Origin: Zygnema cylindricum
Lineage: Eukaryota > Streptophyta > Zygnematophyceae > Zygnematales > Zygnemataceae
Length of the DNA: 64,000 nucleotides
Reading direction: 5' to 3'
NCBI GenBank assembly: GCA_037447655.1
Contig: JBBHKE010003074.1
Span: 1-64,000 of the forward strand
This document shows, piece by piece, positions 5,991 through 62,261 of the stretch (position 1 is the first letter of the stretch; each line of letters starts with the position of its first letter). Under the pieces are notes generated by a model. That model saw only the letters and a program-made list of their open reading frames with translations. It searched no databases and was not told where the DNA came from. A program made the position numbers and the translations under genes.

Positions 5991-6089
5991 GTGGAGGGGC
6001 AGGCACCAATAGGAGCCGACAGAAGGATATCTGGAATGACCCCGATTCTCAACAATCCATCCAGCAGGGATCCCCTCTTTCCCACTTAG

Positions 6090-14180: not shown

Positions 14181-14185
14181 ATTGG

Positions 14186-22883: not shown

Positions 22884-22893
22884 NNNNNNNNNN
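22884..22893. other. Assembly gap (10 N)
   Basis: Ten unresolved bases. The sequence changes character across it: a non-coding repeat on the left, an AT-rich open frame on the right. Gap length is probably a placeholder. Confidence 0.98.
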
Positions 22894-22895
22894 GG

Positions 22896-24937: not shown

Positions 24938-25446
24938 ACGGGGGTGTCCCCAGCCAAGAAACGGGAAACAAGAGTAGAGGCAATAAGACACCAACTTTCT
25001 AAATAGACAGCGAGAGCAACAGGAGCAGTCGATAATAGACCCAACCCCCCACTCGAGACAGGGAGGGATGCATGAATGCGCGCTGATGGCCCAGACTCGC
25101 GATCAAATGCCCCACGACCTAATAGAGTGTGGAGGACGTCCATGAGGGGATTGTCAAAATCCGAGAGAGAGGAGACAAACGTAGAGGTGGGAGGGGAAGT
25201 ATGAGTAAGGTAAGAAAGGCGGTGGGGAAAGTACCTGGTTAACATAGCAAAAGTCACTTGGGGATCGGGAAGGTGAGAAAGGTCGTCCACTTGGGCGAGA
25301 TTTGTCTGTAAAGCATCATGAAGGAATTGGGTCACAAAAGTATTTGAACCAAGGGGGCAACCAAGCACACGAATGCCATCGGATGGAGAAGGGGTTTGAA
25401 AACGAGGAGGGGGAGTAAAGGAAAGTGGAATATCGTGAGGAGACAA
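24938..25446 (-). pseudogene. LINE1 C-terminal region
   Basis: Continues the RT frame after a stop: DGIRVLGCPLGSNTFV (the segment after the palm in many non-LTR RTs), a long helical region, then SARIHASLPVSSGGLGLLS and AVYLESW, the conserved 'L-P-x-x-x-G-G-L-G-L' end. The last ten residues of the open frame are translated LTR sequence. Confidence 0.7.
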
Positions 25447-25464
25447 AATAACACACTTTGAAGG

Positions 25465-26199
25465 CTAAACTGAAAGGTTGAGTTTGAACAAACGTTCCTT
25501 GAAAAAATTATATGCCAACACGACTTGTTCTGTGGGCCCAAGAATGTGCGTATCATCTGCAACCGAAGGGAAAAGGCAAGAAGGGAAGGCGGCTGCGGAA
25601 GCACGAAGGGCCCGGTAATGGGCGAGGGCAAACAAAGGTCCGCCGAGAGGGTCGCCTTCGCAAGTGCCAGTCGCAGAGGAGAGAGGAATGAGATCACCAT
25701 TGGCCGAGAAGGATAGGCTATTTGTCAAAGAATAGAAAGCCCTCACAAAGGGGAGTAATTCCACAATTGGAGATGGAGCCGCCATAAGCTCTGAAAAAAT
25801 CACGTTCCAATCCACCGTATTAAAGGCATTGGAAACGTTGATTTGAAGGACCAACCAATCCGGATGTACATCCAACAAAGCCCGAATCCCGTGGAACACG
25901 ACCTCAGAACCTCCTCTCGTGGCCACTCCAAACTGATAAGGAGAGAAATAACCATGAAAAGCTGGTTGGAGCTGGAGACATATCGTACGAGCCACCAATC
26001 TATATAAAACCTCTCCCACGACAATAGGGCGGATCCCACTATTAGGTTTGGCGACTGCCACAAGCCGGGACGCTGTGAGAAGATCACAAATCCGAGGGGG
26101 AACATCCCCACTAGCAATAAGAAAACATATTCGAAAAAACACATCGAACTCATGGGCACCCGATTTAGGGGGCAAAACATCGCGAAACAACCCATACAC
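25465..26199 (-). pseudogene. LINE1 reverse transcriptase
   Basis: A 244-codon uninterrupted frame. Motifs in order: TASRLVAVAKPNSGIRPIVV (fingers), LYRLVARTIC, QFGVATRGGSEVVFHGIRAL, LVLQINVSNAFNTVDW (motif A; the usual first catalytic Asp position reads INVSNAF, expected V-D-x-x-N-A-F, so it is substituted), TGTCEGDPLGGPLFALAHY (motif B, normally QGDPLG), and FPSVADDTHILG (motif C with both Asp kept). It would synthesise cDNA at a nicked target. The Asp substitution and flanking stops argue it is inactive. Confidence 0.85.
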
Positions 26200-26628
26200 T
26201 GTGTTCGAGGGGCCCCTCGTTGAAAGGTGAGGAGAAGAGATAATAGCCTTTATGAAAACCTCCCGATCTAAAGTAAAACTCTCAGAAGGCTCAAAGGCGT
26301 GGATGGAAGGGGGTAAAGGGGAAGGTGTAGGGGGGTGGAGAGCTCGAAGGACCTCAATAGTGGAAGAAAATCCGGGGGCAGGGGTGAATGGCTGTAGGGC
26401 TCAAACCGGTCAAGAAATCTCACCAACACTACCTAAGTGAATTGCTCGACGATAAGAGGCCGGGGCATATGATGGCCTAGGTGGGCAACGTGGTATGAAA
26501 GTGGTGCTCGATACCCGATCCTCATGCTAGGCATGGAGGGCCTTCCAGTCACCACAAAGGAATCGGCGACAACGCGCCATAGTTTCTCTAGCCCCACTGC
26601 CCCTTCCACGACTTGGAAGGACTAGGAC

Positions 26629-29312: not shown

Positions 29313-30616
29313 TGTTGAAATTTGGGTATTTTCTATGGTCTTTATTAGATAAAAAGAGTAGAGGCAGTCTGCCTCTGACTCCCTTCTCCAAGCCCCCACA
29401 CTTGTTGTAGTCACTGAAGGCTGGAGAGGGAGCCAGAGCCATGGCTGCCTAAGCTCTCCAGAGAGACAGGAATAGATAATAGGTATGTTTACCAAAAAGG
29501 TATATGCGGACCCAGGAATTGATCCTGGTTCCTGCCGTTCGTCAAACATCCCGTAGCCGTTAGCTTTGTCCCTTTAGCCTAGGACTAGTGCTAGTACGTA
29601 TAGGGTTTGATAAATATTTAAATAATTATAAGTTTGATTTTCCATTTAACTAGGTTACGTATATAGGGCATAGAAACAGTTGTAATTTTAGTACCGGACG
29701 AAATAAATAGTACGGACATTTATTTCGACGGTCAGTTTTAATTACGATGTAAATCGGACGGCCGTGGTTAGCGCCAACATCGCGGAAAGGAAAATTTGGC
29801 AGTTTGCAGACGCCGCCACTTCAGATGACACGTGGCAACATCGTACGGGATTACGGAATTTCCAGAACGGCAGAAAACAAATCCAAGAGTGACAAATGTC
29901 GCACTATGGCGACATCGTACAATGTACGTACAGAAAGTACTCCGGCACTTGTACTTTCTTGTACGGTACCATTTTTATGATGCGGCATGACCTGGCGCCA
30001 CGTGGCGGATAAGATTTGGAAGCAAGAATTCCGAAGATTATAAGAGCGAATCCGGTTAGGACATTTGTTGATTTTTAAGCCATGTTGTACGATGACCGTA
30101 CAAAAAGTACACCGGCATCTGTACCTTTAGGTACTATACAGTAATGTGATTGGTCCGTACCTCAGTACTAGAGGGTTTAGAGAGGGGTTTAGGACTTAGA
30201 ATATTTCGGGTAGATAGCTGACTCTCCCACAAAGCACCTTGTATATATGGCAAACTTTGGCCAGCCATAACTATCAATTCAGTTCACCAAATTTAGTGAT
30301 TCATGTTGCTGCGCACTCAAGGGAGTCCAATCTACACATGGGTGTAGTCGGTCAGAGTTTTTCCCTGCCTGGGTGGCTGCATTTCCAAGGGAAATTCAAA
30401 GTGGGGAATGTTATCCTTAGCTCATATTCTAACTTTGCATTCTGTAGTGAAACTGAGCACACAGAAAGCCTTATTTCACAGGGGTGAAGCTATAATGGGG
30501 TTTTGATTGTCAAGGGGTCAATCAATTGGGTTTATATTAACTTGGAGTCGGCACTATCTAGATTAACTTCCTTTGGACCTACCAATTCTGTGTGGCAATG
30601 GAGCCATAGAATTTCA
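29313..30616 (+). repeat. CopN2 5' LTR (1304 bp)
   Basis: TGTTGAAATTTGGG..ATAGAATTTCA. Contains GAGGCAGTCTGCCTC (29360), the tRNA-like module (about 29490-29585), two copies of the G-box CACGTGGC at 29829 and 29999 marking a 170-bp tandem duplication, GTAC clusters in each copy, and a TATATATGGC motif at about 30243. The final ATG (ATGGAGCC.., about 30599) is the conserved gag start position, here followed by a one-base deletion. Confidence 0.92.
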
Positions 30617-32500: not shown

Positions 32501-33811
32501 TGTTGATATTTGGGTATTTTCTAGGTCTTTATTAGATAGAAAAGAGTAGAGGCAGTCTGCCCCTGACTCCCTTCTCCAAGCCCCCACACTTGTCGTAGTC
32601 ACTAAAGGCTGGAGAGGGGAGCTAGAGCCATGGCTGCCTAAGCTCTCCAGAGAGACAAGAATAGATAATATAGGTATGTTTACCAAAATGGTATTTGACA
32701 GACCCAAGAATTGATCCTGGAACCTACCGTCGGTAAACCCGTCCCCGTAGTCGTTAGCTTTGTCCATTTAGTCTAGGGCTAGTGCTAGTACATATAGGGT
32801 TTGAAAGATATTTATATAGTTACAGGTAGGGAATTCCATTTAACTGATTACGGTATTCAGGGCATAGAAACAGTTGTTCTTGTAGCACCGGACGAAATAA
32901 ATAGTACAGACATTTATTTCGACGGTCCGTTTTAGTTACGATGTAAATCGGACGGCCGTGGTAAGCGCCGACATCGCTGAAAGGAAAATTTGGAAGTTTG
33001 CAGACGCCGCCACTCCGGATGACACATGGCAACATCGTACGGGATTACAGAATTTCCGAAACGACAGAAAACAAATCCGGGAGTGACAAATGTCGCACTA
33101 TGGCGACATCGTACAATGTACGTACAGAAATTACTCCGGCACTTGTACTTTCTTGTACGGTACCGTTTTCTAACGCGGCATGACCTGGCGCCACGTGGAG
33201 AGATAAGATTTGGAGGCAGGAATTCCAGAGAATATAAGAGAAAATCCGGATAGGACATTTGTTGACTTTTTAGCCATGTCGTACGATGACCGTACAAAAA
33301 GTACACCGGCATCTGTACCTTTATGTACTATACAGTAATGTGATTGGTCCGTACCTCAGTACTAGAGGGTTTAGAGAGGGGTATAGGACTTAGAATATTT
33401 CGGGTAGGTAGCTGACTCTCCCAGAGAGCACCTTGTATAAATGGCAAACTTTGGCCACCCATAACTATCAATTCAGTTGACCAAATTCATTGATTCTTGT
33501 TGATGCGGACTCAGGGGAGTCCAGGCTACACAGGAGTGTAGTCGGTCAGATTCTTTGCCTGCCAGGGTGGCTGCATTTCTAAGGGAAAGTCAAAGTGGGG
33601 GAATGTGTCCAAATCTCATATTCTAACTTTGCATTCTATGGTGGAACTGAGCACACAGAAAGTTTTATTTCACAAGGGTGAAGCTTTCATGGGGTTCTGA
33701 TTGACAAAGGGTCAATCATTTGGTTTTATATAAACTTGGAGTCGGCACTATCTAGATTAGCTTCCTTTGGACCTGCGAATTCTGTGTGGCAATGGAGCCC
33801 ATAGAATTTCA
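32501..33811 (+). repeat. CopN2 3' LTR (1311 bp)
   Basis: Starts TGTTGATATTTGGG after the purine tract GAAAATAAGGGGAG and ends ATAGAATTTCA, followed by GCTTA. Same 170-bp internal duplication (G-box-like CACATGGC at 33023 and CACGTGGA at 33192). Seven GTAC cores lie in 33281-33362. TATAAATGGC at about 33436 is the likely promoter. Confidence 0.93.
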
Positions 33812-39701: not shown

Positions 39702-40665
39702 TGCTGAAAAGAGGTAATGAATAGTTCACTTCTCTAATTTATTTCCACTTTAAAGAGAGAGAAGGAGGATCAAATGCACGCCATGGCTGCCCCGTATATA
39801 TAGAAAGTGGCTGATTTAGCAGTAGAGTTGAGAGAGAGTGAGGATCAAATGCACGCCATGGCTGCCGCGATATTTAGAAAGTGGCAAATTTAGGAGTAAA
39901 GGATATTTTACCATAATCATGCCTAGGTCCAAATTTGAACCTGGGCTTGCGGACAACTATGTAGTCCTACGATTTATCCACTAATGCGTTATCAAAACGA
40001 TACACGTAACGGGTTTCAAAGATATATACACATTAACGCGAGAACTAATTAACACCTGACTAACAAAGAAGAACAGTTCATGCATGTACGCGAATCTGAA
40101 CCGTGTAAAATATATTTTGATTGGACAACCGACATTATAGCCGCCACCAAAGTAAGCTTTTGGCGGCATACGGAGATAGCGTCACGCGGTGCCACGTGGC
40201 ACCACATTATTTGATACCAGAGATGATGGGTGGAGGAATCATGGCTCCCGATTTGATAGGTGTCACCTTTTAGACCTTGTCGTACAATGGTCGTACAATA
40301 AGTACATCGCCCATTGTACCTTCTTCTGCTATATAGTGTTCCTATTAGACTACGGTTTAGTAGTAGGTAGTCATGAGTAGGCAGACCAAGACTTAGTGAT
40401 ATTTAGGGACCTCTCTCTATAAGAGAGCTTGTAACTATAAAGGTCATCTTTGACCAACCATAACTTACTACTTAGGGGAGCAAATTCAGTGATTCTTTTT
40501 GCGTTTGACTCTAAGGAATCTTCTCCTCACAGGGGTTAGGGTGGTCAAAATATTTTTGTGCCTGGGTGGCGCTTATTCAGTGGGAAAGTGGAAGGGGGAA
40601 ATATTATCCTAGAGGCTTTACATAGGTTGCTCATTCTATGGGTCAATGGAGACCACCGATTTTTA
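39702..40665 (+). repeat. Cop7 5' LTR (964 bp)
   Basis: Starts TGCTGAAAAGAGGTAATG, like SoloC at 61327. A GGATCAAATGCACGCCATGGCTGCC block is present twice (about 39768 and 39842). tRNA-like module on the - strand at about 39910-40000 (B box complement of AAATTTGAACC, 39931-39941; A-box-like GCATTAGTGGATAA). G-box CCACGTGGCACC at about 40192, GTAC cluster 40280-40320. Confidence 0.9.
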
Positions 40666-41724: not shown

Positions 41725-41962
41725 TGAGGAGAGCTTGTAACTATAAATGTCATCATTGACCAACCATAACTTACTGCTCAGGGGAGCAAATTCAGTGATT
41801 CTTTTTACGTTTGACTCAAGAGTGTCTTGTCCTCACAGGTGAGGGAGTTTAATATTTTAGTGCCCTCGGGTATTTTATTCTGGGAAAGTGGAAAGGAAAA
41901 TATTATCCTATGGCTTTACATAGGTTGCTCATTCGGTGGTTAATGGAGACCACAAAATTTCA
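41725..41962 (+). repeat. Cop7 3' LTR remnant
   Basis: GAGAGCTTGTAACTATAAA to ACAAAATTTCA matches the last ~240 bp of the Cop7 5' LTR; TAAAC follows. The upstream part of this LTR was deleted together with pol. Confidence 0.88.
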
Positions 41963-42859
41963 TAAACTTCCAAAGCCTCACAATAGGCACGTGGACGCTT
42001 CCTCCTCAAATTTGGATATTGTAGTTTGATTCTAGTGTGTCAAACCGCTTAGAATCCAATGAAATTTTGTCGTGATTTCTTACAATATGCATTGCGGATA
42101 ATTTAATATCCCCATTATCGTACCTTAAAACTTCCCACTCCAAAAATATATCGACTTCCCCAAATCTCTCGACTTTAAAATGTAGTCGCCTGCTTCAATT
42201 CCGGATTCACATCAACTTGTCACATATCATCAAAATCTTTCATACACAAAAAAAATATGATTTGATCCTCCCTCACCTTTCCATGTGAAACTCCAGGTCT
42301 AAAACAGATTTACGAATCCAAATTCGGTAAAGACCTTGTGTTATCGTAAATATCAAGTCCTTGGTGCTTGCTTTAGTCTGTATAAAGACTTTCACAGCCG
42401 CCATACCTTCCACTCTTTCGACACTACTCCTTCCGGAACCTTCAAATAAACCTCCTCCTCTAAGTCACCTCACAAGAACGTCGTCTCTACATCCATTTGG
42501 TGAATGTGCTTCTTACCAGCAGCGGCAATAGCAATAATCATCCTCAATGAATCAAACTTCATGACCGGTGCATATGTCTCCGTATAATTTATCCCCTCCC
42601 TTTGTTGAAAGCCCTTACGTACTAGCCGAGCTTTATGTTTTACTATTTCCCCCGATGCACCTGTTTTTGTTTTGAAAATCCACTTCGCATCAATAGCCTT
42701 TTTACTCTCCGGTAAACTTACCTCCTCAAATGTTTCGTTCTCGATAATAGATTGAAGTTCTCTTTCCCACGCCGATTTTCAATGCGTCTCACAATCGCAT
42801 GATTTACGTGCTTTCATGTACGATTGCGGATCGCATGGCATATTATCGCATAATGATTG
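41963..42859 (-). pseudogene. Cop6 reverse transcriptase
   Basis: Reading leftward from about 42750: DAKWIFKTKTGASGEIVKHK, ARLVRKGFQQREGINYTETY, MIIAIAAAGKKHIHQMDVET, DLEEEVYLKVPEG, a KVWRL.KSLYRLKQAPRT region with stops, then strongly decayed palm sequence and FLEWEVLRYDNGDIKLSAMHI up to the Cop7 insertion. YVDD is not legible. It continues across Cop7 into SLMYFSVATRPDI, which confirms the nesting. Confidence 0.8.
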
Positions 42860-44245
42860 CTATAAGAGGAAATCTTCCTCCTTAGCCGCTGAAATATAAT
42901 AATAGGAATTTTCAACATTTCCCTTACCGTCAAAAGAAAGACGAGCCGGTTTCTTCCCCCTATTTTCTCGCATACTCCTCCTCAGCTCAAATTTTTTCTC
43001 CTCCTTTGTCAGGTCCTCCTCAAAGATATTCGGGCCGCTCGATTTAGAAGACGAAGATTTCCTCGTGTCCGAGGACATTCGGGAATTTTCGATTCGTGAA
43101 TCCCCACCAATGTTATCAAAATATTTATTTTCCACAAATTTACCTTTCCCCCTCTTAACATTGGAGGTGGAATCTGGATCAATTTCCGAATCCGAACCCT
43201 CAATGTCATTAAGGTCACCAATATCAAATTCCCCATGAAAATCAAGATTAGAGTGTCGCTTAGCCGATCGAGAGATTGTGGATAATAAATCCTCGTGGAA
43301 ATCCACATTTCTCAATTCCTCAACGATATGTCGAATTGGATCATAAACTCGATAAAGGCTTTCTTTCTCGCTATATCCAATGAAATAACCACTCCAACTC
43401 CTCGATGCAAACTTACCCTTTCTCTTTTGCGATTTAATATAAATCGACGCAGGACATCCCCAAATCCGAATGTGGTGAAGAGTGGGTTTTCGACCATGCC
43501 ATAATTCGTATGGAGTTTTATCACCCGAAACGGATGTAATCCCCCGATTGCAAATATAATTCGCCGTCAAAATCGCATCACCCCATAAATGAATACTCCT
43601 CCCGGATCCGTGTACCATGGATCGTATCATTTCTTTAAGCGTACGATTCTTCCTCTCGGCAACGCCATTAGATTCCGGTGAGTAAGATGCAGTATATTGA
43701 TGAGAAATTCCCCACTCTTTACAATAAGGATCAAAAGCAAGAAATTCCCCTCCATTATCCGATCTAATAGATTTTAACTTTCTCTCACATTGCCTTTCGG
43801 CCATCACATGCCACTCTTGAAAGCGTAAAAATGCTTCGGATTTGTGTTTAAGTAATATTACCCATGTGAAGCGAGTGAAGTCGTCGACCACCACCATAAT
43901 ATAATTGTTTCCACCAATCGTATCCGGTTTCACATCCCCACATAAATCAATGTGGACAAGATCAAGCAGATGCTTAGATCGATGCAAAGGATCCTTAGCC
44001 GAATGTGGCTTTCGGATTTGTCTTCCCTTACTACATCCATCGCACCTGTTAATTTTCTCTCCCGACGCCAAGTCTAATCCCCTTCCGCTCCCATTTTTGA
44101 TCATTCGTCGTAAACTCGCCTCGGATGTGTGACACATCCCGTGGTGCCACGTTGTCAAATCGCCTTTTAAATCAGATATTTGCGAAATAATACCAGCGGA
44201 ATTTGAGGAGAATTTAGGCCGACGCCAAATCAACCGGTTGTGCAT
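42860..44245 (-). CDS. Cop6 integrase (461 codons, catalytic residues intact)
   Basis: GAG-pre-integrase and zinc-binding HHCC: TTWHHGMCHTSEAS..NRCDGCSKGRQ (residues about 30-75). Core: LVHIDLCGDVKPD (first Asp), IMVVVDDFTRFTWVILLK, SIRSDNGGEFLAFD (second Asp), SPESNGVAERKNRTLKEM (catalytic Glu). C-terminal domain: IRIWGCPASIYIKSQKR, KFASRSWSGYFIGYSEK, then a Ser/Asp-rich tail and RRSMRENRGKKPARLSF. The open frame ends near the RT start. A normal Ty1/copia integrase in length and motifs; the only complete D-D-E set in an open frame in the window. It starts by overlapping the protease frame. Confidence 0.93.
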   Translation of the reverse strand: MHNRLIWRRPKFSSNSAGIISQISDLKGDLTTWHHGMCHTSEASLRRMIKNGSGRGLDLASGEKINRCDGCSKGRQIRKPHSAKDPLHRSKHLLDLVHIDLCGDVKPDTIGGNNYIMVVVDDFTRFTWVILLKHKSEAFLRFQEWHVMAERQCERKLKSIRSDNGGEFLAFDPYCKEWGISHQYTASYSPESNGVAERKNRTLKEMIRSMVHGSGRSIHLWGDAILTANYICNRGITSVSGDKTPYELWHGRKPTLHHIRIWGCPASIYIKSQKRKGKFASRSWSGYFIGYSEKESLYRVYDPIRHIVEELRNVDFHEDLLSTISRSAKRHSNLDFHGEFDIGDLNDIEGSDSEIDPDSTSNVKRGKGKFVENKYFDNIGGDSRIENSRMSSDTRKSSSSKSSGPNIFEEDLTKEEKKFELRRSMRENRGKKPARLSFDGKGNVENSYYYISAAKEEDFLL

Positions 44246-44928
44246 GAATTGTGTGATTCCCTTTCACCAATTTGTACACCATCCGGTCGTACAATTTTTA
44301 TTGTTGAATCACCGTACGAGAGTACCTCGCAACCTGTTCGTTGAATTTGAGGTACGCTGAGAAGGTTTACCAAACTTTCAAGTAAATATAATACATTCGT
44401 CAGTTCGACCTGCGTCAGTTTTTCCACGTCGCTTGAGTCTAAAATAGGTAAATCTAACTGTACAGTACCCACTGTACCGATTGAAATTATTTGTCCACTT
44501 GTGACACTAATTTTCTTCGGTATCGTGAGTTGCCGTAGGTCATAGAAAAGTGACCCGTCTGTACATACGTGATGCGACGCTCCTGAATCGATTATCCAGA
44601 TCTTTTCTTGTCCAGTAGTACCTTCCAACAAATCGCGCGATAGGTTAAGGACCGAAAATATTTGCGGTCTTTCTCCTTCCCCTTCAAAATGCTCGTCACC
44701 AAAAAAATGTCCCCCCCCCCTTCCATGGCGGCCTCCACGACCACCGCGGCCGCCAAGACGACCGCCGCCGCGACCACTGTATCGGCCGCCGACGTCTCCT
44801 CTACCGCCGTCGCCGCCTCTACCGCCGGCGCTTCCATTTTTAGGCTTCGAATAACATTGGGGGCTTATATGACCCCATTTCCCGCAAAAATGGCATTGCC
44901 GCTCCTTGTCCGAGCAAGAAGCCGCCAT
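44230..44928 (-). CDS. Cop6 Gag zinc-knuckle region and protease
   Basis: 233 codons. It opens in the first zinc knuckle (CFQCGKLGYMAASC, whose His is Tyr, read from about 44960) and goes on to a normal second one, CHFCGKWGHISPQC. A long Gly/Arg-rich segment follows (GRGGGRLGGRGGRGGRHGRG), then the protease: IWIIDSGASHHVCTDGSLFY with catalytic DSGA, KKISVTSGQIISI, GTVQLDLPILD, LTNVLYLLESLVNLLSVPQI. Similar to Cop5 domain by domain. The frame overlaps the integrase frame by 16 bp, a frameshift in the original pol. Confidence 0.88.
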   Translation of the reverse strand: MAASCSDKERQCHFCGKWGHISPQCYSKPKNGSAGGRGGDGGRGDVGGRYSGRGGGRLGGRGGRGGRHGRGGGHFFGDEHFEGEGERPQIFSVLNLSRDLLEGTTGQEKIWIIDSGASHHVCTDGSLFYDLRQLTIPKKISVTSGQIISIGTVGTVQLDLPILDSSDVEKLTQVELTNVLYLLESLVNLLSVPQIQRTGCEVLSYGDSTIKIVRPDGVQIGERESHNSCTTG

Positions 44929-44966
44929 ATAACCAAGTTTGCCGCACTGAAAGCAGGCAATATTGG

Positions 44967-45191
44967 TCAGATTTGAATATTCGGGCTAGGAGGGAAATCT
45001 CCCGGCCCTTTCCTGACCTCTTCCACCTCTTCCTCTCGGATTTCCTCCTCTCCTACCTCCTCTCCTCGAAAATAATTTAGATCGGGCGTTTCAGGTGTCG
45101 TCGCATTGAGGGAACTGGTCGGTTGAGTTCCCCTCGATGAGCTAGGACGATTCGCCTCGGTAGATTTGAGGAATGTAATAATTGAATCCAA
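44967..45191 (-). pseudogene. Cop6 Gag linker
   Basis: Frameshifted continuation of Gag: ITFLKSTEANRPSSSRGTQP, then a Glu-rich repeat (EEEIREEEVEEVRKG). It links the Gag helical domain to the zinc knuckles; one-base shifts separate it from both neighbours. Confidence 0.7.
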
Positions 45192-46179
45192 GGTTTTTTG
45201 AATCCCTTGATAAGAGAATATCCCTCAAATGTATCATTTTCTTCGGTAGGGCATGGGTGAAGACCGATGCCTTATCATTCTCCTCAATAAAATTTCCCAT
45301 ATTTGCGAGTTGCTCAATAATAATGTTAAATCTATTTGCGGCCTCATTGATAGATTCGTTTGCTTTCACCTTGAAGGATGTATAGTTGGTATAAATGTGT
45401 TGCCCTTTATTTTGAAGACTCTTCTCAAAATGATTTTCAAGGGCTACCCAACAATCATGGGCGAATCTCCGGGTAAGAAATAAATCGTGAATCGAAGTGC
45501 TACATGATTGAAATAAACCACCGACGGCGGAAAGATTTTTCTTCGTCCATACGCGATAAGCTCTCCGATCCGAGGTAGGCATTTTGTCCACCCTTTTTAC
45601 AACCTTCCAAAGCCGTTTTAATTTAAATTGACCTTTGATATATTTCTTCCACGATTGATAATTCGTCCCATTGAAGATGACGATCTTTCCGGACATAGAT
45701 TCAACTTGTTCGTCTCCTTCACTCCAATCATCAAGGTCGAAATCATCATCGATGGGAAGTTTCCCCTTTTGAATCAATTCCCTCCTCTCCTCTTCATGTA
45801 CTTCATCTCCTTCCGTATCAACGACGCTTTGTGTCAGAATGGGACCTCCGAAAAATGGAGGTCTGGTAATACGGTTTGCATCGGAGATCCGTTGATCAAC
45901 ATATCGGAAAATACCATCCATCACTTTTTGAAGACGATCTTCCATCGCGTCATCTTCCTCCTTCTTTTTCCCCTCATTCTCCTTTTTTTGTCCAAACGTA
46001 TCGACCGGAAGCGCTTCCTCAAAAGTTTTGCCAGTGAAAGCAAATGGAGTTTTAACTTCTGGATCCGATGAAGATTCGGATTTGGCTATATCCAGAGGAT
46101 CCGGATCTGGAGGAGGAGGAATTATCGTAGAAGAAGAAGGCATCATAGGAGAAGGGGTATTTTTCTTCTTTCTACCCAT
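45142..46179 (-). CDS. Cop6 Gag (345 codons from the first ATG)
   Basis: I start it at ATG 46179 (MGRKKKNTPSP), 46 bases after the primer site, since the longer open frame lacks an upstream ATG. A Pro/Ser- and acidic N-terminal region (to about residue 165) is followed by the helical Gag core: VIFNGTNYQSWKKYIKGQFK, FAHDCWVALENHFEKSL, ASFNIIIEQLANMGNF-like helices (FNIIIEQLANMGNFIEEND) and FTHALPKKMIHLRDILLS. Gag forms the cytoplasmic virus-like particle. The frame is uninterrupted but shifts out at about 45190. Confidence 0.88.
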   Translation of the reverse strand: MGRKKKNTPSPMMPSSSTIIPPPPDPDPLDIAKSESSSDPEVKTPFAFTGKTFEEALPVDTFGQKKENEGKKKEEDDAMEDRLQKVMDGIFRYVDQRISDANRITRPPFFGGPILTQSVVDTEGDEVHEEERRELIQKGKLPIDDDFDLDDWSEGDEQVESMSGKIVIFNGTNYQSWKKYIKGQFKLKRLWKVVKRVDKMPTSDRRAYRVWTKKNLSAVGGLFQSCSTSIHDLFLTRRFAHDCWVALENHFEKSLQNKGQHIYTNYTSFKVKANESINEAANRFNIIIEQLANMGNFIEENDKASVFTHALPKKMIHLRDILLSRDSKNLGFNYYIPQIYRGESS

Positions 46180-46224
46180 GGCGGCCAAACTAGCCACCCT
46201 TCTACACCTCAATGGAGCACACAA

Positions 46225-46236
46225 GCTCCGATACCA
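46225..46236 (-). other. Cop6 primer-binding site (TGGTATCGGAGC)
   Basis: On the - strand, TGGTATCGGAGC lies two bases inside the LTR end; 11 of 12 match the common plant site for the 3' end of initiator tRNA-Met (TGGTATCAGAGC). Confidence 0.85.
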
Positions 46237-46238
46237 CT

Positions 46239-46739
46239 TGAAAGGATCTTAACAAATAAAAGTGCAAAACAGCAGCGGAAGCACAAGAAAATATTTTTCA
46301 CACAAGAGAGGACAGTCCATAAAGTCAATATATTTCATGAACGTTTTTCCCCATAATCAGTATATATTTTCCCTCCCACTACTCTGCAGTAAATAGTATA
46401 CATCAGGCGTCACGTCACTACTTCAAACTATAAACTAAAACAAAATTATAATGCGCACGAAATAAAACCAAACAAACAAATCAACACAAAACTACGTAGT
46501 ACTAATGTACTACCGAAAAGTACACACGAAACCAAATAGCGACAAACCTAACAAACCAAACAATATATGTACTTGGTCGTCGCGAAACCGAATCTACGCG
46601 AGACCGGGAATCTTCAAAACAACCTACGAAACATAATAGGACAAAAGACAAGACCACACGCTTGACAACAAAAGACAAACTGAAAACTATTCGGTCGCGC
46701 GACAGGCCGCGACGACCGATTACCATTTTGACGCTAACA
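46239..46739 (-). repeat. Cop6 5' LTR (501 bp)
   Basis: On the - strand TGTTAGCGTCAAAATGG..AAGATCCTTTCA. Very similar to the 3' LTR at 38555-39040, so Cop6 is comparatively recent. Confidence 0.92.
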
Positions 46740-51725: not shown

Positions 51726-52594
51726 GAGCTAAAAGGATTTTTTTTGGCTCATATGTGAAAATGGAAAACTTCAACTTTATTATGTCGAAATAGAGGCAAT
51801 CCATGGTTCATTGTCATTATTGTACAGAGTTTTAACCGATCAATTTTGCCGAATTGGTGGAAACTCATTAGTAACAGGTGAGGTAAATACGAAATAAGTA
51901 GTTATCCGCATTGGAGGGCTCATTAATATTTTGATATTTTCATTGACAAACACTTGCTCATGTTTGGCGGCTGACTTGAGTGAAGACGGAAGTAGTTTCA
52001 TGATATTGAAATGCAACAAAAGATTGTAAAACAAATTGGAGGTTTTTCCAAATGAGAATGTTATACTTAAAGAACTTGCATAAAATAAATAAGGTTGCGT
52101 CCGATCAAAGTTGTGAATCGGAGGTCCGCAGAATCGGCATTTTATCGGTTCGGCTGGTATTTTGGATCCACGTTGGTGATTGGCGATTTTTGTTCGCAGC
52201 GCAACTGTACACCGAGTACCGCTAATAGTGTTAATATCTTTTTCACCACTTTAAACATATTATCTCCGTACACAACTGACGGATTGTTAATTTGACGGTT
52301 GCGATTAAAAGGTAAGAATCTCAACTTCCAATTGGCAGTCTCAAATTGAAAATTGGACAAGTGTCTACGGATAAAAAATGTTTTAGTGGCGAAAAAATTA
52401 GGGAATTGCTAATCATAGATACGATTTTTGTTGCGCGCAGGTAGTTGTCAGAAATTGTACATTTGAAGTATAGTTTCGTACAAGCTACATACCTTTAAGT
52501 TTAGATTTGACGGTCAATCAGTCGAACAACTTTGACTGGCGAAATATTGTAACGGGGGTTAAAAAACTGTCGCGCTTGCGAACGTCGACCATAC
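51726..52594. other. Unassigned stretch
   Basis: No supported feature; short open frames on both strands lack motifs. Confidence 0.3.
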
Positions 52595-53054
52595 TGTAAC
52601 AAAACTAAGGCAGCCACCTATAAATAAAATGGCTGCGCGTAGGTAGTTACTCACTTCATGTAAGCTCCAATGTGAAAACACACACCGACAATGTGAATCA
52701 ATGCACACACCGACAATGTCAATCAATGTGAAGTACTAATTCAATGTAAGAATGTTGATTTGTAAACAGTGTGGTTTCATTTGGTCGCGACGCTCATTTT
52801 AGTTTCATTATTATTTATACGGCGGTACGCTTTTTTATTTTGTACGAAGTTTTTTTCGTTTCGTGCGAGTTTATACATGTTGTACGTCGTCCTTTAATTC
52901 GTGTCCAAGTTCAGCGTAACAGTTTGCGATTAGATTCCATTTTTGTGGGTAAGTCAAATGTCGATGTGTGCTTTCACAGTGGAGCTCACGTGAAGTGAGT
53001 AACTACCTACGCGCAACCATTTTATTTATATGTGGCTGCCTTGGTTTTGTTACA
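52595..53054. mobile_element. Foldback element, 460 bp with 83-bp terminal inverted repeats
   Basis: Left arm 52595-52677 (TGTAACAAAACTAAGGCAGC..) and right arm 52972-53054 (complement begins TGTAACAAAACCAAGGCAGC..) pair almost completely. The centre has a 24-bp direct repeat (CACACCGACAATGTSAATCA type, about 52678-52728) and no coding capacity. It is a MITE or foldback transposon; a flanking duplication is not obvious (ATAC left, ATAA right). Confidence 0.85.
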
Positions 53055-53099
53055 ATAAACCTGCGCCGGCCGTGTGAATTGTTTTTTTTTCATGACGGT

Positions 53100-54225
53100 C
53101 TCTCAAGCCCGTGTGCGTTTCTGGCACACCTTTATATTGCAAAGGATTTCCGAGCCCTTTTGAACCGGTACGGTCCTCAAAGTATGGAGGAGTGAGTGCA
53201 CCCGGCCGGACAAAAACTTTTTATTTACCAAACTGAGCGGAACACACTTTATTTTGCGCCTAACGGTGGTCGGACGACAGAGTTATTTCGCTTCAAATAT
53301 TTCCATTATGTTACATGTGACCCGTTCCAACCTTTCCCTCTGGGCGGTACATTGTGGAACACCACGTAACTTTTGGGATAGACGTGTAGATTTTGTTGTT
53401 GGGTGTCATTAGGATGTTAGTTCAGGTCCACCAAACGGGCAGAACATTTATTACTCTGGGTCAAAGTTAGGCGTTTCACGTCAATTCAATACTTTGTGGC
53501 TTATGAGTGTATCATATGAGGACATTTGGCTTCCAATACATCCGGAACTAGCCGCCTAACTTTTTGCCCTAAGTGTAGTATAGCCTGTTTTGACTTATGT
53601 CCGTACAATAACAATCTCAGGCCGTTGATTGGCTTCTGGTATTGCTTTGACTGTGGCACTTGCGGTAGGACAAACTTTGCTGGTATAAGGCACTTGGGGC
53701 CGAAGGAGACATGTTACTTTTTCAGTACTGTCTCTTGAGAAAACCCCCCGAGAATTCAATCAATCTTTCTGTTGGAGAACTGTTGCATTGTGTTGTGGAC
53801 TCTATTGCCATCTTTGTTTTGGATTGTCTTTTGTGGAAATCGTAGCTCAGGTGGGTGGTTGGCACTATCCTCTCTTTGGGCGGTTTGGAATTTCGCTATT
53901 TTAAACTTAGAAGAGTATGGTTGGATCCGTACGGCGGAACCGAGGGTTGAGGGAGAATCATATCATTCTTCGGGGCAATTTGGAGAGGTTTCTTCTTCTA
54001 AGTTTTGTCTTCGTTGTACTCCGGGGTATGTGAGCTTGCTTCAACATTTTCATTGATTTCTATCTTATTTCTATTTTTTGGGGCAAGGTGATATTGTTAA
54101 TCTGAAAGAGCCGATATTTATTGTTTCTATATTTCTGCGTGGGAGTTATTTGCGCACTGTTTTAATAGTCTTTGGTTTCTGTCCGGAGTTTTTTGGGCCG
54201 GATCGGACGGCTAACATTCCCTTTC
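53100..54225 (+). repeat. Gypsy LTR copy A (distal module)
   Basis: Begins CTCAAGCCCGTGTGCG and follows the Gyp1 LTR from about 13070 to its end, including GGTATAAGGCACTTGGGGC (promoter, 53683) and GTTGGCACTATCC (53861). The proximal module is missing on the left. Confidence 0.8.
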
Positions 54226-55785
54226 CATCCTTTGGATAGTATCCAGGAGTTTAGCATTTATTGGGCTTCCGGCGGATAAGCACGAATTTGGGTGGGTACG
54301 GGGAACTTTTTCCTCTTTTCACTCGCTCCCTCACTATTACCCATGCATATCCACGGGGAAAGGAGAGACAGAGAAGGGCGTGGTCATGCATGCGAAACCG
54401 CATTAGCATTTGGGGTGGATTGCAGGTCTTCTGTGCACACCTTCTCGAACTTGCCCCCCCTAAACCTCTCGGTTTCCAGGACCCCAATGCACTCTATTTC
54501 TGGCGGTGGGCCTTCTCTTATGTTTCCCAGGCACGCTCGACAGCAACCAGGGTTTTTACCTTCGTTGTGATAAATTCCTTTTCCTTGAAGCTTAGTGGGT
54601 AGTGCTTCTGCCAAACAGTCGCTGTCTCATGTCAAGCTCGTGTGCTTTACCGGCACTTCTTTATCTCACCAAGGATTTGCGGGCCCTTTCTTCCCTGTAT
54701 GGTCATCAGAGCACGGAGGAAGGAGAGTACCTAGCCGGACAAGACTCCTCTATTTTCTAAACTGAGTGGAACGCACTTTATTTCGCGCCTAACGTAGGCT
54801 GGATGACAAAGTTATTCCGTCTCACAGATGGCGATTCCGTTACACGGGACCAGTTTACATCGGCCCTCGTGGGGGGTACATGGTGGATGGCCACGTAACT
54901 TTTCGGATTGTCATTTAGATTTTGCTGTTTGTTGTCAGTAGAACTTCAGTTCAGGTTCAGCTGACTTTTTTGTCCATTAATTACCCTAGGTCAAAGTCTG
55001 GTGTTCCCACACCAGTTCAGGAATTTTGGGAGTTTATTGGTTCCAATTGGGACTCTCTGTTCCGGATTTAGCCGGAGTTTGAAGTAAAACTTTTTTCCTT
55101 GAGTGTGGTACGGCCTTATTTGTCCTATGTCTGTTTGATAGCAATTGCTCCCCGCTCATTGGCTCCTTCCATTGCGTTGACCTTTTGGATCTGAAACTGG
55201 ACAAACTATGTTGTATAAGGCACATGGGGCCGAAGGAGACAGGTTGCTGTTTCAGTACTTTCTCCTGAGAAAAAAACCCTAGAAATTCCAACAAACTTTC
55301 TTTTGGAGAACTTTTGTTTTATGTGTGATTGTGACCCTATTGCCATCTTAATTTGCATTCGTCCTTTGTGAAAGTCGTAGTCCAGTTGGGTAGTTGGCAC
55401 TATCTATCTTGTTTGGGCAATTTGGGACTGGTGTTTGTTGGAAATCAGGAAGGGTCTTGCCGGTTTCGGGTTGCGCAAACCGAGGAGTTAAGGAGGCTTT
55501 ACTTGTTTCGGTGTCTTCGGGAGAGGTTTTGTCTCCTCTTGTTGTCAGCGTGACGTTTTGGGGGTATGTTGAGCTCCCTTGCTATCATTCCAAATATACC
55601 TTTATTCTCTATTTTCTAGGTCAAGGTGATATTGTTAATTCTAAGACAGCATATATTTATTTTATCATTTCATTATTCTGAGTGGAAGTATCTTTGTTCT
55701 CTCTTTCGTATTCCTTTTTGGGGCTTCGGTTGGTTTTCCTCCGGGGTCGATTACTAGAATCTTTTGTACCAGAATAGTGGATTTT
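54226..55785 (+). repeat. Gypsy LTR copy B (both modules)
   Basis: Proximal module (about 54270-54550) ending GGCACGCTCGAC, then about 85 bp not present in the Gyp1 LTR, then the distal module from ATGTCAAGCTCGTGTG (54638) with TGTATAAGGCACA (55212) and GTTGGCACTATC (55396). It is in tandem with copy A. Confidence 0.75.
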
Positions 55786-55789
55786 GTTA

Positions 55790-56072
55790 GAATCTTTGTC
55801 AGACTTTCAACAGAGAGTGACTAATCAGGACACCGGCTCAATGACCAAGGACCCAACCCCTTTCTTCGGCCAGGTGGGGAAAGGAAAGGGGAGGAGATAT
55901 CTTTTCGCCCTCCCCATGCACTCATCCCTATTTTGCATGCATGTCCATAGGAGGAATGCGGGCAACAGTGGGTATAATCATTATTATGGGAAGCATTCGC
56001 ATTTTGGGGGTTATTTGCAGGACTCCTATCGCGACAACTCCGGGGAGTGGGCGCTCCACCCATGTTTCTCAG
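55790..56072 (+). repeat. Gypsy LTR copy C (proximal module)
   Basis: GACCAAGGACCCAACCCC.. to GTTTCTCAGACACGCTC matches the proximal module. The sequence then switches to - strand Gyp2 RT. The matching distal module (copy D) lies on the other side of Gyp2. Confidence 0.7.
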
Positions 56073-56250
56073 ACACGCTCCACACTCATCTATCAAATCT
56101 ATCCGAAAAGGGGTCCCTTTGTATAGGCCAACTTCAGTATCCGACCATGAGAACACCTGCTTGTTCTCCTCTAACAATTTGGAGAGTCAAGCCTTTTATT
56201 GAGGATCCAGCTGCTCCTTTTGTTGTTCTTTGGTCTAAAATGGACCGTAG
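56073..56250 (-). pseudogene. Gyp2 RT N-terminus
   Basis: LEENKQVFSWSDTEVGLYKG, then TPFRIDLIDE, ending at the junction with LTR copy C. It aligns with KNKQVFSSSQTDVGVYKGTPF in Gyp1 and shows Gyp1 and Gyp2 to be one family. RT catalytic motifs lie beyond the truncation. Confidence 0.8.
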
Positions 56251-56261
56251 AAGCCACCCAA

Positions 56262-57586
56262 ACTATCATGCAAAAATTTAAGCAAAGCTAGGCCAATGAA
56301 CAATCATTTGAAATGCATCCTCCATTTAACATACATGCATACACAGAGGCAATCATTCATCCGCACAAGGCAGAGCAATCATCCGTACACAGAAGGAGCA
56401 AGCATGCCTACATATATGCATGAATAACAACTAGGGATACATGAAAATCACAAAAAACCCTAAGACAAATGCATAAATAATGCATAACAAACAAAACAAA
56501 TACATGTGCAATGCATGATAAACAAACATAAAATTATTACATATAAATAATAATAAATGAATGCATCACACATAAACAAAAGTATAATCAAATAATAAAT
56601 GTATCATTTAAATGCATGACCTAATCGACAACCCTAAATTACTACATCTTTGGTCCCTACTTTACTAACCACCATTGAAGATTAATTCCTAACAAAGCTC
56701 ATTCATATATATACACTTGTGAGCTGTCAACGAATCACTAAGTGTCAAAAATAACCAACATAAATTACGTTACTGTCATTAAGTTATATTTGACCATAAT
56801 AGCCTATTACTAAGAAATACATTAATCGTAACCGCACACCTGAAAGTCAAGCAATCGTAAGCGTACACTTGTCTGCAAATACGACACATGAAGACACACA
56901 AATTAAACTTTCGACACCCTCATTGATCACGTAAAATATACCTATTTTAATCAACACTAAATCATTAAATCTAATAAGACAAAACATTGATGTTTCAAAT
57001 ATTTACACCGATGCATCCACAAATCCGCGTCACAAGTGACAACTTGCTTAGTCACTTGTTGATAAGTCCACGCAGCAAGCCGATATCACATACGTACGGC
57101 CCACTTGATCATACATCCTCAAAATAGTGTGATCCATCAAAAAGCGGCGGACGCCGCCCGCCTTCGAAGTACAACACAATCCACTCATTGAAATAATACG
57201 GTACCATCAAAATCTTGTCCGTATCCAAAACCGCGTACTTCGTCATAAATGCCGCATGTCAAAATTGAAATATACTTATCCAAAAAGATTCTTTTGTACC
57301 ATCCCGTACTTTCCATAATTGTCGCCCGTCACATTAGGTTTTGTACGGCCGACGTACAATTTAAATATTTCAAACATTTCATTATCGGATCGTTTCGCGA
57401 TCCGCGTCTATTTCCCAGAGCATTCCACACCACTCAATTTGTTCCCCACGTCACTTTAATTTCACTCGTACACTTACTCCCCCAAACCGCAAATCTGTTC
57501 AAGCCTCCACAGTAATTCCAATAATTACGTGCGCACACAAATACGCACACGCATGTACGAAACTGAATCTTCCTAAAAACAACACC
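56262..57586 (+). mobile_element. SoloB: solo LTR nested in Gyp2
   Basis: About 1.3 kb of non-coding AT-rich sequence that splits the Gyp2 linker from RT. It ends CCTAAAAACAACA (57584), like the SoloA end, and shares the palindrome GGATCGTTTCGCGATCC (57387-57403) with SoloA and the neighbouring AATATTTC.AACATT block. CCCAA occurs at both edges (56257-56261 and 57587-57591) with two extra C on the right. The left terminus is decayed. Confidence 0.6.
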
Positions 57587-57589
57587 CCC

Positions 57590-58098
57590 AAGGTCCAATC
57601 CATCTTCCTGGATTCCACCGCTGGATCGCCCCAGCCAGAGATGTCAAATTCCAACCCTACCGGTGGATCTACTTCTCCCCCTCCTATTAGGACGCTGTTG
57701 TTAACAACTTCCGCTAAGCTATCCTCTTCGGAGCATTTGCTCCCCCCCATTACGGAAACCCTCGGATCTTGTGTGATGCTAGAAGGTGAAATTTTTGAGT
57801 TATTCCTCTACGCCTCTCTCCCCTCCTCAAGTTGCAATGTGGCCTGCATCGCAAACATTTTTGGAGCTTGAAGGTGCCTAGTCCTAGCCTCTGAGGACTG
57901 AAGAGTGGAAAATGCAAGAGGGGATATGGAGTTCAGATCCATACTCTGTCATATTAAGCTGCACCTCTAGAGGTCTGAAATACATGGTGCGGCCGTTGTT
58001 GCAGGTTGGAATTCCATAACTTGTTCTCTTTCTTCAATGTTTTGCGTTGTCCAGGCTTTAGCTGCGCTATCCTATATCATTCCTGGGGCTTCTTTCCT
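57590..58098 (-). pseudogene. Gyp2 linker between methyltransferase and RT
   Basis: Homologous to 4235-4446 of Gyp1: TQDPRVSVMGGSKCSEEDSLAEVVNNSVL and VGLEFDISGWGDPAVES. The part nearer the methyltransferase (58098-57800) is broken by stops. Not a domain I can name. Confidence 0.6.
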
Positions 58099-58883
58099 CT
58101 AAGCTTGGCTGTGTGGGAAAGAGACTAAGGTTGGAAGCGCTTGTCTTGGGGCTCCTGGTGTATTGCAACGAAAGAACGGGGACCATTCAGCTGTGGTCAC
58201 CGGAGTGGCCATTTGCCCCTTCCCGAGAATATGTTGGACTGTAATTTTGGGATCTCGAACCTGTTTGGCCAATAGTTGCTTGAGAATTGAGAGTGGGACC
58301 AGGTTGGTCCAATAAGCTCTTAATCTATGTGCCTTTGATCCCATTTGAGCTGTATCAAAAACTAGTGGTGCCCCCAAAATCTGCGTGATCTGATTCCAGC
58401 TATCGGCAACATGTTTTCTTTTGTCATGTGTTGGGTGGACATTTTCGAATACGTACCCCATTGGCGTCTCCTGGTTCTGCTGAATATCTAAGATCAACGG
58501 AATCATTTGGAAGAAAGTTCTACTCCGACTATCTTGGTGTCCCTTTCCCTGTCCTGCTAAGAAGTATCCTTGACAAGGCCAGCCAGCCATTACGAGATCC
58601 ACCCTCCCCAGACTTTCTAAATGAGACGTCATAATGTTGTCCACATTTTGGGGAGCTTCCAGTGAGAGTTGGAAATGGAGGATACGGGTAATTGTTGCAA
58701 ATACAGCTGGTGGAGCTGTTGCAAAGGGTGCTCACTGACATCCCGAGCTTCTGGTGCTATTTCTACTGTTGCATAGTCCTCCACCTGGTATCCTGCTTTT
58801 AGAACTGCTTTCTGATCGAAACTGATTCCATGAAATAGAGATAAAATTCGGAGTCCGGATTTGGGAATCATCAATGACACCAC
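58099..58883 (-). pseudogene. Gyp2 C5 cytosine DNA methyltransferase domain
   Basis: Motif I: LRILSLFHGISFDQKAVLKA, with VEIAPEARDVS (motif II-like acidic residue in EI) in 58883-58740. Then a frameshift, and 58644-58099 carries VDLVMAGWPCQGYFLAGQGK (motif IV with the catalytic Cys of P-C-Q), DSRSRTFFQMIPLILDI, GYVFENVHP (motif VI, E-N-V) and MGSKAHRLRAYWTNL (motif VIII, R-x-R, followed by Y-W-T-N). The order and the LF-G-I/YW-NL features fit the DNMT3/DRM-like group, which methylates cytosine C5 using S-adenosylmethionine. Motifs IX-X are less clear. Catalytic residues are retained; one frameshift inactivates it as it stands. Position: after the retropepsin, before RT, same strand. Confidence 0.85.
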
Positions 58884-59763
58884 ATGTCGGTTGAATCTCT
58901 TACCGTCGGTGGGGACATCCGAAGGTTCTGACCGAAGGTACGTTGTGCCTTCGGGTATAATCGCTGCAAATTTTTTTTACCTCCCGCCAAAGTTTTGCTA
59001 CCTGTAATAATCTTTCTTAGTATTCCTTTTCCCACCGCTTGGAAATTGGGAATTGCTAGATTGCCTCGGCTATATCTGCTGAGCTGGCAAAGAGATCTGC
59101 AGGAGTTGTTGTGGAATATACAAGGTAGCACCCAGACACCGGAACAACCGTCCTTCCCCTATTCCATAATGCAAAGGGAACCACCACCTTGGTCCCTTCA
59201 GGATATTCAAGTTCTCGAACAGTATACTTTTCCTTCCAAATGCTCAGCCCAATATTTAGCCGGGTCCACGTAGTTGTCCCCAACAGGGTTTCAAATTGCT
59301 TACCTTCCACCACCAAGAAGAGGAGTTGAATCCAGACTTGTTGGCCCACGTTATCAGAGAACTCGATTGTCATGGCTTTAATAATCCTGTGGACTGGTTG
59401 GCTTCTGATGCTAACCGTGCTCAAGCAAATGTCGCTTGGGCAAATATCCGACCAAAGTCCCTCGGGCATCTGTTACATAGCCGAAGTGGTTATCAGGTTA
59501 AGGAGTGCCCCTCTATCGACCACGGCGTCTTGATATCCTCCGTATCTGTTGAGTTTTCAGTATTTGGTTCCATTGAGGATGAGTGCCACTGTTAAAGCCT
59601 TGTTATACCTATCTACAATAAGGGTGTTTACTTTCGAGGACATAAAGACTGTCTCGGACAGGTGTGCCAGAGCAACTTTCTCTCTTTCCATATGCATCTC
59701 TTCCCCCAAGGCCTGAATGAGGATGTCTTCTGGCAGATTATGGGAGGAAGCAAGGGTTTTCAT
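58884..59763 (-). pseudogene. Gyp2 Gag C-terminus and retropepsin
   Basis: 59763-59557 reads EDILIQALGEEMHMEREKVA and DRYNKALTVALILNGTKY, the entry of a gypsy aspartic protease. After a stop it continues GGYQDAVVDRGALLNLITTS, where D-S-G-A is expected, so the active-site Ser is Arg (codons at 59506-59517). 59469-59056 follows with VWIQLLFLVVEGKQFETLLG and RLNIGLSIWKEKYTV, the flap and 'L-L-G' region, then RELEYPEGTKVVVPFALWNR. The frame ends in a linker (LRKIITGSKTLAGGKKN) leading to the methyltransferase. Confidence 0.7.
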
Positions 59764-59872
59764 ATGATGAGAGCGTATGGCATAAGATGTCGTACCAACA
59801 TCACGGCTGACTTAGAGGATGGGGGTGGAGTTCAGGCGGTGAAATTGGTATTTCCAGTTTTTCTTGCTCCTC

Positions 59873-60405
59873 CCCTGTCAAGCTCGTGTGCTTTACAAAC
59901 ACACCTTTATATCACCAAGGAATTCTTGACCCTTTCTCCCCTGTACTTTCATCAGAGTACGGAGGAAGGATTGTACCCAGCCGAATGTCATTCTTCTATT
60001 TTTATAAACTAAGCGGAACGCACTTTATTTCGCACCTAACGGAGGCCGAACGACCAAGTTATTCCGTCTTATAGATTACAATTCTGTAACATGGGACCAG
60101 TTTACACCAGTGGATTGCCACGTAAACTTTGGGATTGTTGTCTAGATTATGTTGTTAGCTGTCAATAGGAATTCAGTTCAGGTTCAGCTGACTTTTGGTC
60201 CATTAATTACCTCAGGTCAAAGTCTGGCACTTTTGTGTCGTTCTTAAGACTTTGTCTTATAGTAGTGGAACAAATAATAACTTCCGGCCGCGGATCTAGT
60301 CGCAGTCTGGTGCATAACCTTTGCCCTAAGCATAATACGGATTAATTTGTCCTCGGTCAGTTCGATTACACTTGCTTGCAGCTCATTGGGTTTGGGTTTG
60401 GGCAT
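59873..60405 (+). repeat. Gypsy LTR copy D (part of the distal module)
   Basis: CTGTCAAGCTCGTGTGC onward matches the distal module up to just before the promoter motif (GCTCATTGGGTTTGGG, about 60383). Together with copy C it looks like one LTR split by Gyp2. Confidence 0.72.
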
Positions 60406-60476
60406 TTGTGTCAACTTTATTGAGATGTAGAAAGCAGCTATTTGGTAGGATTCTTGGTAAGCTTTTGAGGTGAATT

Positions 60477-61326: not shown

Positions 61327-62261
61327 TGTTGAAAAGAAGTAATTAATATTCACTTTTTAATTTAGACTGTAGAGTGAAGAGAGAGAGAGAGAGAGAGAGT
61401 TACCATGGCTGTCGCCATAGTTAGAAAGAAACAGGCAGACAGGCATAGTTAGAAAGAAACAGGCAGACAGGCAGACAGATTAATAGATTGCCAAAATGTT
61501 ACCCTAAACCAGATTTCGACCTAGGTCTACGAAACACGATATAGACGTATGCCTTAACCATTATGGCGTGTACAACGAAATACGTATTTATTTCGTTATG
61601 TATATAAAGTGTTACGCAAAACGTCACTTTCATTAAAACATACCAAAATTGGCGAAACAACATCTATAGTCAAACGACGCTCGTGGACGCGAATCTAGCC
61701 GTGTAAAATACATGATCGGACAGACGTCGTCGCCCCCACCAAACTCGAATGAATATTTTGCGGCTTTCAAACATAACGGTGCGCTATTCCACATGGCGCA
61801 ACATCATTGGACACCGTAAAGGATGGGAGGAAGAACGATGACTCCGATTTTGACAAGTGTCAACCAGAAGGCCATGTTGTATAATGGCCGTACAAGAAGT
61901 ACAATCAGCCACTGTACCTTTTTGTACTATACACTCTCTTGATTGGCCGAAAGTAGAGTAGTAAGTAGTTGTGAGTAGGAGTTAAGGGACTTAGTGTGTA
62001 TGAGGCGTCTCTCTCCAGGTGACCTTTTGTATTTATATGCCATCTTTGGCTAGCCATAACTTACTGCTCAGGGGAGCAAATTCAGTGATTCTTTTTGCGT
62101 TTGGCTCAAGGGAGTCTTGTCCTCACAAGGGTTACGATGGTCTGAATATTTGTGTGCTTGGGCGGCACTTATTCAATGGGAAACTGAAAGGGTCAAATAT
62201 TATCCTAGAGGCTTTACATAGGCTGTTCATTCAGTGGGTTAATGGAGACCACAGAATTTCA
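61327..62261 (+). mobile_element. SoloC: solo LTR of the long-LTR copia group (935 bp)
   Basis: TGTTGAAAAGAAGTAATT..AGACCACAGAATTTCA, closest to the Cop7 LTR. (GA)n tract at about 61378-61400. tRNA-like module on the - strand at about 61498-61570 with A-box-like GCCATAATGGTTAAGGC and B-box-like GGTCGAAATC. GTAC cluster 61890-61930. Sits between Gag and protease of Cop8; flanking pentamers AGAGC and CAATA do not match, so the target duplication has decayed or there was a deletion. Confidence 0.82.

Follow-up and report, generated by a model that had tools for sequence, protein, structure and literature searches.

A degenerate Ty3/gypsy retrotransposon copy whose pol region probably carried a DNMT3-like cytosine-5 methyltransferase

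Cytosine-5 methyltransferases (C5-MTases) carried by retrotransposons have been described before. The passages of PMC5890265 drawn on here report Dnmt3-type methyltransferases (MTases) in the Pol ORF of an LTR Gypsy element of Klebsormidium nitens (Ka/Ks < 0.2) and, in Symbiodinium, MTases that were captured independently. According to the same passages, de novo CG methylation was obtained in yeast with two DNMT domains of SymbioDIRS. No methylation was obtained with the K. nitens retro-DNMT3 in this yeast test, an outcome which the authors call inconclusive, and methylation of new copies upon retrotranscription was proposed for the Symbiodinium DIRS elements. PMC12344493, in the part used here, places some DNMT3 within retrotransposons of streptophytes and dinoflagellates and names LTR Copia and DIRS. 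The original prediction for the locus described below had mentioned retrotransposon-captured MTases reported from charophytes and dinoflagellates. In a literature search that lay mostly outside subscription journals and left out preprints, PMC5890265 was the only primary report of a gypsy-borne MTase found. The arrangement considered here is rare and already known in kind from the green alga Klebsormidium.

The window, the whole stretch of 64,000 nucleotides that was analysed, has a GC content of 41.5%. Its minus strand probably holds a degenerate, truncated Ty3/gypsy LTR retrotransposon copy whose pol carried a DNMT3-like C5-MTase between protease and reverse transcriptase (RT). Compared by description only, the locus resembles KnitGypsy-Dnmt3 in having a DNMT3-like, non-rearranged C5-MTase that probably lay inside a gypsy Pol (PMC5890265, in the passages used). 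The one open frame which runs through the protease-like segment, the MTase body and the linker, together with the linker homology, may point to an element of KnitGypsy type; motif I now lies in another frame, and the protease and DNMT3 assignments are themselves tentative. In contrast to this copy, which is broken, the KnitGypsy MTases keep their key residues and are under purifying selection, and their repeats are DIRS-like (Fig. 4 legend), whereas the window copy has no assignable terminal repeats. The SymbioDIRS-Dnmt3 and SymbioLINE-Dnmt elements of Symbiodinium likewise bear a C5-MTase, but belong to other retrotransposon classes and are independent captures (same passages). The host DNMT3 of mosses and other non-flowering streptophytes, as described in the cited part of PMC6453930, is also DNMT3-type and non-rearranged; it is a host gene with a C-terminal DUF3444, where the window has a gypsy linker instead. 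An orchid Ty3/gypsy element (PMC9289625, in the part cited) is another plant gypsy with an extra nucleic-acid-modifying enzyme, but its enzyme is an m6A RNA demethylase (AlkB) in an additional ORF and not a MTase. The features of the locus, and of a second gypsy fragment in the window (Gyp1), are as follows.

59491 to 59526, minus strand: retropepsin-like active-site strand AVVDRGALLNLI (translation and post hoc pattern scan)
59056 to 59472, minus strand: open piece of 138 aa with a retropepsin-like C-terminal half, FETLLGTTTW at 59295-59266 (translation)
58821 to 58853, minus strand: MTase motif I, LRILSLFHGIS, in the ORF 58629-58976 of another, overlapping frame (translation)
58099 to 58731, minus strand: MTase body, DNMT3-like, with motifs IV, VI, VIII and a IX-like motif (Pfam, PDB, Foldseek)
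58587 to 58567, minus strand: motif IV, AGWPCQG (translation)
58452 to 58438, minus strand: motif VI, VFENV (translation)
58332 to 58300, minus strand: motif VIII, AHRLRAYWTNL (translation)
58149 to 58126, minus strand: motif IX-like, PRQALPTL (translation)
57925 to 58098, minus strand: putative MTase remainder with in-frame stops, same frame as the body (by eye)
57578 to 57789, minus strand: linker homologous to the Gyp1 pre-RT linker (alignment, blastn, tblastn)
56221 to 57584, minus strand: LTR-like insert of 1,364 bp with TGTTG...CAACA ends (by eye), absent from Gyp1 (alignment)
56085 to 56212, minus strand: pre-RT peptide (...NKQVFSWSDTEVGLYKGTPFRIDLIDE), cut at 56085 (alignment with Gyp1)
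4228 to 7124, plus strand: Gyp1, with linker, RT, RNase H region and integrase (alignment, eye, Pfam)

The motif names and numbers in this list are those in use for C5-MTases. The minus-strand ORF 58099-58731, 210 aa from stop to stop, was confirmed as a C5-MTase. It matched Pfam DNA_methylase (PF00145) with an E value of 1.7e-8 (34.7 bits, cut-off 22; best stretch residues 36-116 of 210) and TIGR00675 dcm with 7.9e-11, but in the latter case 42.2 bits stayed below the cut-off of 100.65. A phmmer search against PDB placed DNMT3A chains best (E 1.3e-8), followed by DNMT3C/3B and M.HhaI, and none of the 44 PDB sequences with an E value of up to 10 was a chain of DNMT1, CMT, DRM or DNMT2. Motifs I, IV, VI and VIII lie in canonical order on one strand with PC, ENV and R.R retained, so the predicted C5-MTase with these four motifs holds. 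A loose IV-VI-VIII pattern occurred at one place in the window and gave two matches in 200 triplet-shuffled windows. The 210 codons are the longest stop-free run in 57500-59811, a length reached by one of 300 dinucleotide shuffles. For the motif I piece, a small local comparison gave 42.5% over 40 aa with a phage C5-MTase (E 1.4e-6) and an E value of 0.002 with DNMT3A; the Pfam search of its ORF, 58629-58976, returned no match.

The domain had been predicted to end at 58099, which proved to be the end of a stop codon, and the frame of the body continues to 57925. Two peptides in this continuation, EREQVMEFQPATT (58032-57994) and QSMDLNSI (57948-57925), resemble by eye motif X and the stretch leading into it. 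The motifs IX-X for which a search had been suggested are thus represented by the IX-like peptide and by X-like peptides after stops, the latter with no statistical score of their own in the Pfam search and the local comparison. Because of this, the extension is put no higher than probable: as read from the sequence, the MTase probably continues beyond 58099, to about 57925. A second MTase copy was not found within the window (tblastn, E 0.01, pieces of at least 35 aa).

Downstream of the MTase, the predicted linker in common with Gyp1 was recovered in two parts. The interval 57789-57578 corresponds to Gyp1 4228-4456 (blastn 72.9% over 144 bp; tblastn 51% over 57 aa, E 7e-12), and 56212-56085 corresponds to Gyp1 4453-4580 (tblastn 73.5% over 34 aa, E 4e-13). 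The two parts are separated by the 1,364-bp insert, which we read as a nested LTR-like insert; an exact target duplication was not seen at its flanks. The linker is homologous to that of Gyp1, as had been predicted, but is split by this insert. In Gyp1 the linker and the pre-RT peptide adjoin and are followed by RT and RNase H, both recognized by eye, and by integrase, which is the gypsy order. Pfam matches of Gyp1 to RVT_1 (E 0.064) and rve (E 2.8e-5) were both below cut-off, and the RNase H region had no Pfam match. In the MTase-bearing copy, gypsy homology stops at 56085 with IDLIDE, within an LTR-like repeat unit. The RT which had been placed downstream in this element was thus rejected: the copy reaches the pre-RT peptide, and an RT body was seen only in Gyp1. 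The MTase-bearing copy showed no gag, RT or integrase and no LTRs that could be assigned to it. Gyp1 was also rejected as a test of whether the MTase is standard in the family. Alignment to it begins only at 4228, immediately past the position that a MTase would occupy, which makes Gyp1 uninformative on a built-in MTase.

Other repeats were observed around these fragments. A unit of about 1,529 bp starting with TGTCAAGC lies head to tail at 53096 and 54625, again at 59871 beside the gypsy piece, and near 13 kb; the spans are 53096-56085, 59871-60426 and 12812-14405, with LTR-like ends and about 66-79% likeness in aligned parts. The unit may represent either LTRs in an old tandem array or a satellite. 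The units at 53096, 54625 and 59871 were not assigned as LTRs of the MTase element, the intervening sequence being without gag or RT and the gypsy homology starting inside a unit (56085). A dispersed repeat, perhaps the LTR of a copia family, occurs at six places (61684-62259, 40085-40663, 41744-41965, 24527-24891, 30079-30417 and 33273-33595) which are 67-80% alike over about 230-590 bp. A copia element on the minus strand at 42860-46248 has long open gag, Pol_BBD and integrase ORFs, one of which, at 467 aa, is longer than any other in the window, and a copia-like ORF at 22818-23288 contains the 10 N of the window, an assembly gap. On the minus strand at 24904-26400, in a GC-richer stretch, there is a non-LTR-like reverse transcriptase (Pfam RVT_1, E 1.4e-9, in 25465-26400); the adjoining ORF has no Pfam match. 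An inverted repeat at 52592-53057, with 99-nt arms 91% complementary and 268 nt apart, is a possible fold-back element. A search of the window for Rfam families (gathering threshold) and for tRNAs had no matches.

Upstream of the MTase, a gypsy retropepsin had been predicted. The segment 59526-59266, from VVDRGALLNLI (59526-59491) to TLLGTTTW, is a decayed retropepsin-like segment recognized at the level of pattern only, and the spacing of VVDRGALLNLI to FETLLGTTTW resembles that of retropepsins. The pattern, which was written after seeing the sequence, occurred at one place in the window and in none of 60 triplet-shuffled windows. Pfam, PDB-sequence and fold searches found no retropepsin in the protease-like pieces; the assignment by fold was rejected, the model having a mean pLDDT of 43.8 and none of 424 matches an E value of 0.001 or better. 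The predicted protease thus stands as a pattern and not as a database match. The open piece upstream starts 60 bp from the LTR-like unit at 59871.

The reading frame was compared over 57400-59900. Stops number 16 in the minus frame with the protease-like segment, the MTase body and the linker, but 39 and 40 in the two remaining minus frames, a difference which fits a single ancestral pol polyprotein; the plus frames have 25, 28 and 34. The frame of motif I is open over 58976-58632 and the third minus frame over 59158-58874, after which the first frame resumes, and we read these frame switches around motif I as decay. GC by codon position appeared uneven in the protease-like piece (0.49, 0.43 and 0.52), the MTase (0.56, 0.43 and 0.43) and the linker (0.51, 0.45 and 0.54), and flat in the 1,364-bp insert (0.37 each). 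Because of its stops and frame changes, the MTase-bearing copy is, on the evidence of its sequence, dead, and a protein product would not be expected from it.

The kind of MTase was then considered, including capture from a bacterium or virus with a DNMT3 likeness by resemblance only, a source which is compatible with a MTase in pol and which we regard as unlikely. In local BLASTP the MTase body scored 53 bits with DNMT3A, 40 with M.HhaI, 28 with DNMT2, 24 with DRM2 and 23 with DNMT1, where DRM2 was represented by motifs I-V only and DNMT1 by an N-terminal piece of the catalytic domain. Four phage C5-MTases scored 61, 57, 56 and 57 bits in the same comparison, and phmmer gave 36.7-45.1 for phages and 38.0 for DNMT3A, so by score alone the phage enzymes are as near as DNMT3A. 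The phage search matched 88 records, with E values down to 9e-10 among the ten best of 88. With the single-sequence query, no close relatives turned up in collections of viral, bacterial and plasmid sequences, and an alignment query returned generic C5-MTases in at least 561 of the 600 stretches listed; the phage matches were likewise generic C5-MTases. Capture from a virus is also favoured by motif IV, since GWPCQG of the window is nearer to viral GSPCQG (74 of 74) than to GSPCND of DNMT3A, the S being not independent because the viral set was fetched partly by a motif-IV pattern ending G[SW]PC. On the other hand, FENV, as in DNMT3A, was found in one of the 73 viral sequences having motif VI, and AH preceding R.R, also as in DNMT3A, in none of 74. 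The window MTase pairs with DNMT3A, with an ultrafast bootstrap of 95, in a tree that has 79 sequences, of which 74 are viral. This tree used 101 columns of motifs IV-VIII and drew its viral ORFs from a set of 84 loci, ten of which had no usable ORF; DRM2 was dropped for too few columns and no plant or K. nitens DNMT3 was included. The two branches of the pair are long (2.06 and 1.78), and their attraction is possible. The pairing was better by 8.4 to 8.5 log-likelihood units, not significantly so, as the topologies that lack it were not rejected (p-AU 0.171 and 0.145) in a test that used 12 of the 74 viral sequences and 1000 replicates, a number below the program's recommendation. A structure model from the window piece and 27 of 54 usable viral relatives was of modest quality (pLDDT 60.7); in Foldseek its ranks 1-24 were all DNMT3 and M.HaeIII was rank 25, with a loose fit for those first 24 matches (TM 0.36-0.42 by query length). 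The equally high viral scores, the topologies not rejected, the long branches and the loose fold match count against a DNMT3-like reading. As to the kind of METHYLTRANSFERASE, "DNMT3-like" nevertheless seems a fair name, and derivation of the MTase from a host DNMT3 appears likely, not proven. From the DNMT3/DRM-like motif set of the original prediction, the DNMT3 part is retained through motif order, FENV, AHR and the top PDB and fold matches. DRM origin or membership is rejected because the motif order is canonical (I, IV, VI, VIII), not the rearranged one with VI-X before I-V.

A host DNMT3 retrocopy or pseudogene that landed by chance beside gypsy fragments, and was never encoded by the element, would also place these sequences together. 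A single copy was seen, the region is a heap of nested, truncated repeats, and the support for the retropepsin is weak, with no database match; these points favour such a chance neighbour, and they count against a MTase in pol together with the absence of the element's own LTRs, gag and RT. However, the MTase is on the same strand as both flanks and its body is in frame with both sides (two agreeing frames alone have a chance of about 1/9), the gap from the last motif-X-like peptide to the gypsy pol linker is no more than about 140 bp, and a family with an arrangement the same in kind, DNMT3 in a gypsy Pol ORF, has been published (PMC5890265, in the passages used). A chance neighbour is thus judged distinctly improbable. 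The MTase looks built into pol, because it shares the strand, its body is in frame with both sides, and the linker precedes RT in Gyp1. To this extent the predicted built-in domain is supported, and it may be a stable part of the family.

If the MTase was part of pol, it would have been translated as part of it, released by the element protease or kept with the protease products, and packaged together with RT. It could then methylate de novo the new cDNA of the element, or DNA near the insertion. Methylation would occur before or at integration, as the passages of PMC5890265 propose for DIRS elements and as we carry over to this gypsy copy. A methylated copy could pass as host chromatin or have altered silencing, and the mark might serve as camouflage, protection or self-limitation. 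We hold this self-methylation mechanism tentatively, with somewhat less than even confidence, on the basis of analogy. The domain might instead act on RNA, or only bind nucleic acid within pol, and so not methylate element DNA. The KnitGypsy and SymbioLINE domains without DNA methylation in yeast agree with this, and RNA methylation was raised for LINEs by the authors (both in the passages of PMC5890265 used here), whereas PC, ENV and R.R are retained in the window MTase and two SymbioDIRS domains do methylate CG (same passages), so that a role confined to RNA or binding seems improbable.

If the host were a land plant, this would run against what has been stated in print (PMC6338049). It is less likely than not, although conceivable, that the host is a land plant in which a gypsy lineage, inherited vertically or acquired independently, had a DNMT3-type MTase fixed between protease and RT; self-methylating LTR elements would then extend beyond charophyte algae and dinoflagellates. 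DNA methylation usually targets retrotransposons. Elements with their own DNMT3-like enzyme would invert the usual roles, raising the question of whether such elements mark their own copies. As a second gypsy case, the order protease-MTase-linker-RT read from this sequence may serve as a probe for intact copies and for dating the capture.
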